A DNA stretch of 64,000 bases from Pelagibacteraceae bacterium AG-426-E17. GTDB taxonomy: Bacteria; Pseudomonadota; Alphaproteobacteria; Pelagibacterales; Pelagibacteraceae. The notes beneath the pieces are model-generated. The model did no database searches and was not told where the DNA came from. It saw only the letters and a program-made list of their open reading frames with translations. The DNA lies in the NCBI GenBank assembly GCA_003210095.1, contig QCNP01000001.1, positions 418,001 to 482,000 on the forward strand. The letters are read 5' to 3'. The translations under genes and the position numbers were made by a program. Every line of letters begins with the position of its first letter. Position 1 is the stretch's first letter. Shown here piece after piece: positions 49,720 through 53,699 of the stretch.

Positions 49720-52700
49720 ATGAAAAAAGATCTTTTAGTACCCGATATTGGTGATTTTGAAAATGTTGAAATTATAGAGCTGTTAGTAAAACAAGGCCAA
49801 AAAATCTCTATTAACGATCCAATTGTAACATTAGAAAGTGATAAATCTAGTGTTGAAGTGCCATCAACAGAGGAAGGCATTGTAGAAAGTATATCAATTA
49901 AGATAGGAGATAAAGTTTCAAAAGGTGACAAATTAATTTCAATTTCTGTAGAAGGTGGAAGTGAAAAAATCGAGGAAGTTAAGGAAGTTAAAAAAGAGAC
50001 AGAAATACCAAAAGATACAGAAAAAATTATAAGTGATGCAGAAAAAGTACAAAAAATTGAGGAACCAAAAATTATCAGACAAGAAGTTTCGGAGACAAAA
50101 AAAATCTCCAAATTAGAAAATTCAAAAATTGAGATTGTCTCAGATACAAATGATGTAGATCCTAGTGAGACCAAAGAGTGGCTTGAGTCATTATCTGCAG
50201 TACTTAACAGCGATGGTAAAGAACGAGCACAATATATAATCAGACAATTAATAGAGCATTCATACAGAGAGGGTTCTGGATTAGTAATGTCTAGAAATAC
50301 TCCGTACATTAATACAATACCTCCCGAGGAAGAAAAAAAACTACCTGGCGATCAAAATATAGAGCGAAAAATTAGATCTCTAATTAGATGGAACGCAGCT
50401 GCCATGGTTGTAAGAGCTAATAAAAAAAACCCAGAATTAGGTGGACACATAGGAACTTTCGCTTCAGCCGCAACTCTATACGATGTTGGAATGAACCATT
50501 TTTGGAGAGCAAAAAATAATAAATTTGGTGGAGATTTGATATATTTTCAAGGTCATAGTGCTCCAGGAATTTATGCAAGGTCTTATCTTGAAGGAAGATT
50601 AAACGAAAAACAATTAGATAATTTCAGACAAGAAGTTAAACCGGGTGGACTGTCATCTTATCCACATCCATGGTTGATGCCAGAGTATTGGCAGTTTCCA
50701 ACCGTATCAATGGGGTTAGGTCCTATGCTTGCAATTTATCAAGCAAGATTTATGAAATACTTAATTAATCGAGGCCTCATTAAAGATGAAGGTAGAAAGG
50801 TTTGGGCTTTCTTAGGTGATGGAGAAATGGATGAACCAGAATCTTTAGGAGCTATAGGCTTAGCTGCTAGAGAAAAATTAGATAATTTAATTTTTGTAGT
50901 AAACTGTAACCTTCAAAGACTGGATGGACCAGTAAGAGGTAATGGTAAAATTATTCAAGAGCTTGAGGGTATTTTTAGAGGAGCTGGCTGGAATGTGCTT
51001 AAGGTAATTTGGGGGTCATACTGGGATCAGCTATTAGCAAATGACAAAAAAGGTCTGTTAGTAAAAAGGATGAATGAAGCTGTTGATGGTGAATACCAAG
51101 CATTTAAAGCTAAGGGTGGATCATATGTGAGAGAGAAGTTCTTCGGAAAATATAAAGAATTAAAAGATATGGTGTCTTCTATGACAGACCAAGATATTTG
51201 GAAACTTAACAGAGGTGGACATGACCCACATAAAGTTTATGCAGCTTATCATCAAGCAGTTAACAATGTTGGAAAACCCACTGTTATTATAGCTAAAACG
51301 ATAAAAGGTTACGGAATGGGTAAATCAGGAGAAAGTATAAATACCACTCACCAACAAAAAAAATTAGATGTAAAAGATCTTATGTATTATAGGGACAGGT
51401 TTGATGTTCCATTAACAGATGAGCAAGTAAAAAATATTCAATATTATAAACCAGACGAAAATTCAGAAGAAATAAAGTATTTAAAAGATAGAAGAATAAA
51501 ACTTGGTGGAAATATACCTGAAAGATCCACTTTTGCAAAATCAATTAAGGCTCCACCAAAAGATATTTTTGATGCTCTTAAAAAGTCGACTGGTTCAAAA
51601 GAAATGTCTACTACTATGGCACTTGTAAGAATGCTCACCAATCTTTTAAGAGATAAAAATGTTTCGCCAAGATTAGTTCCTATTATTCCAGATGAAGCCA
51701 GAACTTTTGGAATGGAAGGTTTTTTTCAAAAAATCGGTATATATGCTCACGAAGGGCAAAAGTATGAGCCAGTAGACTCAGAACAATTATTTTCTTATAG
51801 GGAGGATAAAAAAGGTCAAGTTTTAGAGGAAGGTATAACCGAAGCTGGATCAATGTCATCTTGGATAGCAGCTGGTACAGCATATTCAAACCATGATATT
51901 GAAATGATCCCTATTTATCTATTTTACTCAATGTTCGGATTTCAAAGAGTAGGAGATTTTGCATGGGCTGCTGGAGATAGTCAAGCAAGAGGATTTCTAA
52001 TTGGAGCAACATCAGGAAGGACTACGCTCGCAGGTGAAGGTTTACAACACCAAGACGGACATAGTCATTTACTAGCCTCAACTATACCAAATTGTGTTTC
52101 CTATGACCCTACTTTTGCATATGAGTTAGCTGTAATTTTTAGAGATGGTTTAAAGAGAATGCATGAAAACAAAGAAAATATTTTTTACTATATAACAACA
52201 TTAAATGAAAATTACCCACATCCAGAAATACCTAATGAGAAAGGTATTGAAGACTCAATTTTAAAAGGAATGTATAAATTAAAATCTATAAACATGAATA
52301 AAAAAACAAAAATCACACTTTTAGGATCAGGTTCAATATTAAGAGAAATGTTAGAGGCATCAGAAATCTTAAATAAAGATTATAAAATTGACTCTGATGT
52401 GTGGAGCGTGACAAGTTACAACGAATTACGAAAAGATGGTTTAGAGATAGAGAGATATAATTTACTTAATCCAGATGAGAAACCTAAAGAAACGTATGTA
52501 GAAAAATGTTTAAAAGATTCTGAAGGACCTATATTAGCTGCATCAGACTATATGAGAATTTCATCTGATCAAATAAGACCATATACAAGCAAGAGCTTTT
52601 ATTCCCTTGGTACAGACGGGTATGGAAGAAGTGATACAAGAAAAAATCTTAGAAACTTTTTCGAAGTAGATAAAAAATATATTGTTACTTATGCTTTGAG

Positions 52701-52800
52701 CGTTCTTTCAAAAGAACAACTAATTGCATCAAAATACGCTGAGGATGCAATTAAAAAATATAATATTGATAAAAATAAACCGATGCCAACCAAGTTATAA
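49720..52800 (+). CDS. aceE: Pyruvate dehydrogenase E1 (homodimeric) with N-terminal lipoyl domain
   Basis: A 1026-residue protein. Residues 1-78 are a complete lipoyl domain (LLVPDIGDFENVEIIELLVK with the attachment Lys at about 42 in LESDKSSVEVPS), followed by a charged linker to about 150. The rest is AceE-type E1: HIGTFASAATLYDVGMNHFW, the thiamine-diphosphate motif GDGEMDEPESLGAIGLA with NCNLQRLDGPVRGNGKIIQ, and GEGLQHQDGHSHLLAS. E1 decarboxylates pyruvate and loads the acetyl group on a lipoyl arm. Normally that arm is on E2; here it is fused to E1. aceF follows after two bases. Confidence 0.94.
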   Translation: MKKDLLVPDIGDFENVEIIELLVKQGQKISINDPIVTLESDKSSVEVPSTEEGIVESISIKIGDKVSKGDKLISISVEGGSEKIEEVKEVKKETEIPKDTEKIISDAEKVQKIEEPKIIRQEVSETKKISKLENSKIEIVSDTNDVDPSETKEWLESLSAVLNSDGKERAQYIIRQLIEHSYREGSGLVMSRNTPYINTIPPEEEKKLPGDQNIERKIRSLIRWNAAAMVVRANKKNPELGGHIGTFASAATLYDVGMNHFWRAKNNKFGGDLIYFQGHSAPGIYARSYLEGRLNEKQLDNFRQEVKPGGLSSYPHPWLMPEYWQFPTVSMGLGPMLAIYQARFMKYLINRGLIKDEGRKVWAFLGDGEMDEPESLGAIGLAAREKLDNLIFVVNCNLQRLDGPVRGNGKIIQELEGIFRGAGWNVLKVIWGSYWDQLLANDKKGLLVKRMNEAVDGEYQAFKAKGGSYVREKFFGKYKELKDMVSSMTDQDIWKLNRGGHDPHKVYAAYHQAVNNVGKPTVIIAKTIKGYGMGKSGESINTTHQQKKLDVKDLMYYRDRFDVPLTDEQVKNIQYYKPDENSEEIKYLKDRRIKLGGNIPERSTFAKSIKAPPKDIFDALKKSTGSKEMSTTMALVRMLTNLLRDKNVSPRLVPIIPDEARTFGMEGFFQKIGIYAHEGQKYEPVDSEQLFSYREDKKGQVLEEGITEAGSMSSWIAAGTAYSNHDIEMIPIYLFYSMFGFQRVGDFAWAAGDSQARGFLIGATSGRTTLAGEGLQHQDGHSHLLASTIPNCVSYDPTFAYELAVIFRDGLKRMHENKENIFYYITTLNENYPHPEIPNEKGIEDSILKGMYKLKSINMNKKTKITLLGSGSILREMLEASEILNKDYKIDSDVWSVTSYNELRKDGLEIERYNLLNPDEKPKETYVEKCLKDSEGPILAASDYMRISSDQIRPYTSKSFYSLGTDGYGRSDTRKNLRNFFEVDKKYIVTYALSVLSKEQLIASKYAEDAIKKYNIDKNKPMPTKL

Positions 52801-52802
52801 AA

Positions 52803-53699
52803 ATGAGCCAAATTATACATGCGAGCCCAAAGGTAAGAAAGTTTGCAAGGCAACTTGGTGCAGACATTTCTCAATTAAAAGGTTCAGAAAGAAATGGCAG
52901 GATTACAGAGAATGATGTCCGAAATTTTATAAAAAATCAAATTAAGAAACAAGAAAACACTCCGAAGAAATCAATAAAAGACGAAAAAAAGAAACTAGAG
53001 TTTGATCATAGTGAGTTTGGTGAAATAGAAATAACACAAATGCCACGAATAAAAAGGTTGGCAGCACCAAATTTATCTGAATCTTGGCGAACGATTCCAC
53101 ATGTAACTCACCATGACGAGGCTGATGTTACTGAACTTGAAAGTTTTAGAAAAAATTTGAAGGATAATTTTACCGGTGAAAAGAAAAAAATAACCCCTTT
53201 AGCTTTTATTATTAAAGCTCTAGTGAATAGTTTAAAAAAATTTCCTCATTTTAATTGCTCTATTAAGGATGAAGAAAACTACGAACTTATATTAAAAAAA
53301 TATTTTCATATAGGAATAGCAGTTGATACAGAGCATGGCCTAATGGTACCAAAAATAAGAAATGCAGATAGCAAAAAGATAGAAGACTTATCAATTGAAC
53401 TTAAAGATATAAGTGAAAAATGTAGAAATTTAAAAATTGATAAAAAAGAATTTTTTGGAGGCTCCATGACAATTACAAGTTTAGGAGGTATTGGTGGGAC
53501 TTTTTTTACACCGATTATCAACCCTCCTGAAGTTGCAATATTAGGTATTGGTAAAATAGTAGAACGAAATAAAAATTTAATGCTTCCATTATCTTTGTCT
53601 TATGATCACAGAGTAGTTAATGGTGCAGATGCGGCAAGGTTTTGTAACGAATTAAAAGACAACCTTGGGCAAAATTTTGCTTATAAATTATCACTTTAA
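52803..53699 (+). CDS. aceF: Pyruvate dehydrogenase E2 acetyltransferase lacking a lipoyl domain
   Basis: A 298-residue E2 made of a peripheral-subunit-binding domain (SPKVRKFARQLGADISQLKG followed by NGRITENDVRNF), a linker, and the catalytic core with TPLAFIIKALVNSLKKFPHFN, GSMTITSLGGIGGTFFTPIINPPEVAILG and the active site SYDHRVVNGADAARF. Normal E2 proteins begin with one to three lipoyl domains; none is encoded here. The ATG at 52803 is two bases after the aceE stop, so no lipoyl sequence can be hidden upstream. The acetyl arm must come from the N-terminus of AceE. No E3 gene is in this window. Confidence 0.93.
   Translation: MSQIIHASPKVRKFARQLGADISQLKGSERNGRITENDVRNFIKNQIKKQENTPKKSIKDEKKKLEFDHSEFGEIEITQMPRIKRLAAPNLSESWRTIPHVTHHDEADVTELESFRKNLKDNFTGEKKKITPLAFIIKALVNSLKKFPHFNCSIKDEENYELILKKYFHIGIAVDTEHGLMVPKIRNADSKKIEDLSIELKDISEKCRNLKIDKKEFFGGSMTITSLGGIGGTFFTPIINPPEVAILGIGKIVERNKNLMLPLSLSYDHRVVNGADAARFCNELKDNLGQNFAYKLSL

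Follow-up and report, generated by a model that had tools for sequence, protein, structure and literature searches.

Which subunit carries the swinging arm of the pyruvate dehydrogenase complex (PDH) in a SAR11 bacterium? In textbook active-site coupling the arm is on E2. The window analysed here is a stretch of 64,000 nucleotides (positions 418,001 to 482,000 of contig QCNP01000001.1) from Pelagibacteraceae bacterium AG-426-E17, in which the adjacent aceE and aceF genes encode an E1 with a lipoyl domain (LD) and an E2 with none. We consider it very probable that E1 bears the only lipoyl arms of PDH in this genome.

Domain anatomy of AceE and AceF

The two genes and their parts lie in the window as follows.

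49720..52800, plus strand: aceE, encoding LD, linker and homodimeric pyruvate dehydrogenase E1 (E1p), 1026 amino acids (open reading frame; Pfam, NCBIfam and PDB matches)
49732..49944, plus strand: AceE residues 5-75, LD (Pfam Biotin_lipoyl; AlphaFold beta fold)
49843..49845, plus strand: Lys42 codon of AceE, the predicted site of lipoyl attachment, in ESDKSSVEV (invariant motif; hairpin turn in the model)
49945..50145, plus strand: AceE residues 76-142, charged Lys/Glu-rich linker, predicted to be disordered (low pLDDT)
50146..50271, plus strand: AceE residues 143-184, N-terminal region of E1p, probable docking region (matches an E1 fragment, PDB 9h1n)
50146..52791, plus strand: AceE residues 143-1024, complete homodimeric E1p (TIGR00759)
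52801..52802, no strand: two-base gap between the aceE stop and the aceF start (coordinates)
52803..53699, plus strand: aceF, encoding E2 without an LD, 298 amino acids (open reading frame; Pfam, NCBIfam)
52815..52922, plus strand: AceF residues 5-40, peripheral subunit-binding domain (PSBD; Pfam E3_binding, 48.6 bits)
53028..53666, plus strand: AceF residues 76-288, acyltransferase catalytic core (Pfam 2-oxoacid_dh, 247.6 bits)

A preliminary description of this DNA had read AceE as a complete N-terminal LD with its attachment lysine, a linker and a full homodimeric-type E1, and the profile and structure searches agree. The Biotin_lipoyl match scores 59.9 bits (E = 2e-16) against a Pfam cut-off of 22.1, and the lipoyl part of the NCBIfam E2 models aligns to the same N-terminus. 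In the PDB this end of the protein matched the LDs of pyruvate dehydrogenase E2 components (E2p), and the E1 part gave a full-length match to E1p of the E. coli type. The AlphaFold model has beta strands at residues 2-76 (block pLDDT 78-91), and Lys42 occupies the hairpin turn that joins strands 34-39 and 44-48; residues 80-138 have a pLDDT below 50 and are predicted to be disordered. Residues 143-184 matched the E1 fragment that forms chain C of PDB entry 9h1n (phmmer E = 1.1e-7), and residues 4-55 of AceF matched the E2 fragment that forms its chain A. The docking region of E1 thus appears to be conserved, with AceE 143-184 as its probable location.

AceF begins at the PSBD, as had been described. 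It carries the E2 domains PF02817 (subunit-binding) and PF00198 (acyltransferase core), both of which are present in its structural model; the one other Pfam match was a weak one to CAT, and none was to a lipoyl family. A PDH of the AceE/AceF type would be expected to have an E2 with one to three LDs. TIGR01348 was below its cut-off for AceE and for AceF. The coordinates confirm that only two bases separate the genes, so there is no space for an LD upstream of aceF. Residues 267-275 of AceF (window 53601-53627) read DHRxxNG in the window's clade and in L011-L022, where most relatives have DHRxxDG, and the stretch just before it is shorter in the window's protein and its closest relatives (9 residues against 17); the asparagine is also present in two E2s from outside the family.

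AceE scored 1275.6 bits with TIGR03186 ('AKGDH_not_PDH'), which might suggest a complex for a 2-oxoacid other than pyruvate, though this is under the cut-off of 1408.3. The aceE equivalog, TIGR00759, on the other hand passed its own cut-off widely (1438.7 bits against 859.9), and at E<=1e-20 the genome shows no other E1 of the AceE type. It would seem very unlikely that the substrate is anything but pyruvate.

Lipoyl domains in the genome and the family

The window's own genome is 1.15 Mb long and 99.3% complete. Three biotin/lipoyl domains were over the cut-off, in AceE, in an AccB-like frame of 139 residues and in a SucB-like frame of 448 residues, and acyltransferase domains were found twice, in the SucB-like protein and in AceF. 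The search revealed no separate LD protein and no second LD-bearing E2 of PDH, GcvH not being among the proteins searched for. The two findings that the preliminary description had named as fatal to its reading, an AceE N-terminus that lacks the lipoyl fold and a separate LD-bearing E2 working with this E1, were therefore not encountered. The lipoyl synthase gene lipA is present. At E<=1e-20 there was no match to the LD-bearing E1-beta of heterotetrameric E1s (NF008854).

The only dihydrolipoamide dehydrogenase (E3) is a 470-residue frame next to sucB, which a TIGR01350 match of 582.5 bits fills; no PF00364 match, and so no LD, was found in it. As the single E3 of the genome it must be shared. 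This sharing, the normal LD that SucB keeps and the hybrid complexes known in actinobacteria (PMC7568260) raise the question of whether the E1 LD is an accessory or regulatory domain, with PDH borrowing the SucB arm of the oxoglutarate complex as in the hybrid pyruvate dehydrogenase-oxoglutarate dehydrogenase (PDH-ODH) of Corynebacterium. The SucB LD is, however, only about 33% identical to that of AceE, and the history of the E1 LD, described below, also speaks against borrowing.

To see how the remaining genomes of the family are equipped, a census was taken of 32, in which AceF is short in 17 and long in 15. Three biotin/lipoyl domains were counted in 15 of the 17 genomes with a short AceF; of the others, G054 adds a partial, borderline match and the draft G176 shows two domains. 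Four or five were counted in all genomes with a long AceF but one (14/15), G036 having three.

With full-length AceE as the query, a search of 298 genomes from the order found LD-bearing AceE throughout the Pelagibacteraceae (family f1) and only weak matches in the sister family f2. The nearest record in a scan of the species collection, AG-349-C06, is 94% identical. Every family E1 whose N-terminus is intact, about 146 distinct proteins, has at least one LD and at most two: one in most genera, two in genus g2 and in most of g4. AceF has none, one or two, with one or two in most; in the single-contig genomes examined, G003, G005 and G011 among them, LDs are present on both proteins. In the deep genera g2-g4 both proteins bear LDs, so that the window, with one on E1 and none on E2, represents the minimal state, and relatives have up to two on each. 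The comparison over SAR11 that the preliminary description had proposed thus bears out an LD on E1 family-wide, but not a uniform architecture. Two tandem LDs were seen on the AceEs of L042, L043, L141, L143 and L144 (1111-1133 amino acids); L141 has two on AceF as well, which makes four arms per E1/E2 pair.

Four E1s that seemed to lack the domain could all be explained. In that of L135 (genome G185) the frame shifts at an A-run of the linker, and the LD remains encoded upstream; those of L145, L255 and L259 have N-termini cut by contig ends. The frameshift, and the draft state of many of the genomes, might suggest that the missing AceF LD is itself an artefact of assembly, frameshifting or annotation. 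This is scarcely credible: in every short-AceF locus measured the aceE stop and the subunit-binding domain are only 2-36 nucleotides apart, no extra full LD was found in genomes with a short AceF, and the LD-less state recurs in the single-cell genomes L232 and L233.

Outside the family the LD on E1p was absent from everything searched. Among the E1p matches listed from 399 genomes of the phylum and 386 of the class, none from outside the family reaches before residue 113 of the query, and an LD profile run against about 95 non-family E1ps, 12 of them chosen for their oversized frames, found an LD in none. The outside E2s in view have one to three LDs each.

Some genomes differ in their E1 complement. 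A second E1 of 887-896 amino acids, 53-55% identical and without an LD, is present in L146, L147 and L148 (G158, G001 and G096), and the flanking sequence retrieved holds no E2. The copy in G001 adjoins genes resembling, by sequence, a TRAP transporter and an enzyme of the isocitrate-lyase family, and its substrate may therefore not be pyruvate. The sister family (G002, G004, G006 and others) has no AceE-type E1, and in ten of its genomes the one E1-beta match (G010, L217) lies amid methyltransferase- and aminotransferase-like genes. For the AceE-less family genomes G038 and G142 we considered replacement of PDH by an E1-beta type; the neighbourhoods of the genes found are unrelated, with a sugar-epimerase-like gene next to one of them, and so give no evidence of it.

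Probable duplication, recurrent loss and selection

By calling the LD 'moved' from E2 to E1, the preliminary description implied a direct transfer from one protein to the other. The LDs of E1 and E2 within the family are 62-64% identical to each other, while that of the window is on average about 43% identical to E2p LDs from outside. In a tree of the LDs, which has too few columns for full resolution, most of the family's LDs, from E1 and E2 alike, group together, the divergent second E2 LDs excepted. Because this likeness exceeds that to outside E2 LDs, the simplest reading of the sequences is that the E2 LD was duplicated onto E1 in the ancestor of the family.

The fate of the E2 copy was followed on a tree built from E1 and E2 core sequences with all LD columns excluded. 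The state of the E2 LD requires at least eight changes over 121 loci, or nine events if only losses are allowed, and at least nine changes, or ten loss-only events, over 149 loci. Placing all LD-less AceFs in one clade is rejected (p-AU 3.5e-13), and the N-terminal peptides left over on AceF differ between the LD-less clades. Loss is the likely direction since the deep genera and the AceFs outside the family have E2 LDs, which suggests that the E2 LD was lost nine to ten times independently and not once. No loss of the E1 LD was seen in the family sample. Under equal chances of loss for the two copies, finding all nine losses on E2 has a two-sided probability of about 0.004.

A single rearrangement transferring the LD from AceF to AceE would account for the window taken alone, with its one LD on E1 and none on E2. 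We regard it as highly improbable, given that most relatives, the deep genera included, bear LDs on both proteins and that AceFs without an LD turn up in separate parts of the tree. 'Moved' is therefore not the right word: the E1 LD would be an old duplicate shared by the family, and in this lineage the E2 copy was deleted.

The E1 LD also appears to be maintained. Its ESDKSS lipoylation motif is invariant in 124/124 E1 LDs of the family, and within the clades lacking an E2 LD nonsynonymous divergence (dN) is far below synonymous divergence (dS), for example 0.018 against 0.52, which indicates purifying selection. An LD that is never lost, against nine to ten losses on E2, that is under such selection and whose lysine motif is invariant, is not what would be expected of an accessory domain beside a borrowed SucB arm, and we think that explanation unlikely.

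Loss of the E2 LD goes together with a longer E1 linker. In the first set of loci the linker averages 73.9 residues without an E2 LD and 62.5 with one; phylogenetic generalised least-squares regression (n=113) gives +7.4 residues (t=5.9), and 8/9 sister contrasts are positive. In the larger set seven contrasts are up, two equal and one down (Wilcoxon p=0.016). Linker length was treated as continuous because cutting it at the median left too few informative pairs for significance. A compensating longer linker in AceF was considered and rejected, since the distance from PSBD to core is alike (64.6 against 63.9).

A proposed arm borne by E1

The arrangement suggests a reaction cycle that would begin with lipoylation of Lys42 in AceE. 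One of the E1 active sites would reductively acetylate the arm, which sits on a disordered linker some 70-78 residues long. With the E1 dimer docked by its N-terminal region on the PSBD of AceF, the arm could reach the E2 catalytic core and hand the acetyl group to coenzyme A. The single E3, bound to other PSBDs, would then return the reduced arm to its oxidised form. In E. coli a PSBD is able to bind E1p or E3, and 24 subunits make up the core (PMC8421416). Each E1 dimer would supply two arms, and the number of arms would therefore follow the docking sites occupied by E1 and not the copy number of E2. The architecture implies, as the preliminary description proposed, an arm attached to E1 that is recruited along with it; it would be tied to the enzyme that loads it and not to the one that unloads it. 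The E1 duplicate may have made the E2 copy dispensable; its deletion, some nine to ten times, mostly went with a longer E1 linker. While the domain anatomy, the common ancestry of the E1 and E2 LDs, the repeated loss, the selection and the linker correlation can be read from the sequences, lipoylation, docking, catalysis, stoichiometry and any effect on active-site coupling are deduced from them. We think it likely that an arm borne by homodimeric-type E1p alone drives PDH in about ten lineages, with arm number set by E1 occupancy.

Several points weigh against this. Lipoylation of Lys42, assembly of the complex and PDH activity are predictions from sequence, and it is conceivable that the SucB LD serves PDH. 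In 3/10 contrasts the linker is of equal length or slightly shorter where the E2 LD is gone, several of the contrasts share one comparison group, and the regression covers only the first, smaller set.

If the proposal holds, very abundant ocean bacteria have put the arm on E1 and dropped the E2 arm repeatedly, and in this sample never the E1 arm. Close relatives with one to four LDs per E1/E2 pair, and with a linker that is mostly longer once the E2 arm is lost, form a natural series that tests how many arms, and of what length, 2-oxoacid dehydrogenase complexes need. For annotation, an AceF without a lipoyl domain need not signal a broken PDH.

In a SAR11 genome paper there is mention of aceEF and of additional aceE copies, but not of lipoyl domains (PMC10030771), and a literature search for lipoyl with SAR11 or Pelagibacter, whose coverage did not extend to subscription papers, found nothing relevant. 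LDs on E3 or on E1-beta are known; for an LD on a homodimeric-type E1, and for E1 as the sole carrier, there appears to be no earlier report, none having been found. Short LD-free E2 families exist in NCBIfam (NF008815, NF011416). In Mycoplasma hyopneumoniae the E3, PdhD, bears an LD, lipoylated at K42 by mass spectrometry (PMC7873978). The likeness lies in an LD on a peripheral enzyme; the carrier there is E3, whereas in the window's genome it is E1 and the E3 is LD-free.

The PDH of Zymomonas also keeps an LD on its E2. It resembles the window's system in having an LD at the N-terminus of an E1 subunit (NF008854), but this E1 is heterotetrameric and of another family, whereas the window's is of the homodimeric type and has the only arm. 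In Zymomonas mobilis the subunit is E1-beta, going by the title of a 1999 paper cited in PMC7873978. Actinobacterial OdhA combines an E2 transferase and the oxoglutarate dehydrogenase E1 (E1o) in one polypeptide (PMC10415282); it and the hybrid PDH-ODH are alike in their rearranged E1/E2 domains and shared arms, but what is fused to E1o is the E2 acyltransferase and not an LD. The E. coli-type PDH is like that of the window in its parts, with the same E1p family and N-terminal docking region, a subunit-binding domain, an acyltransferase core and a separate E3. There AceF has one to three LDs, whereas in the window E2 has none and E1 has one.

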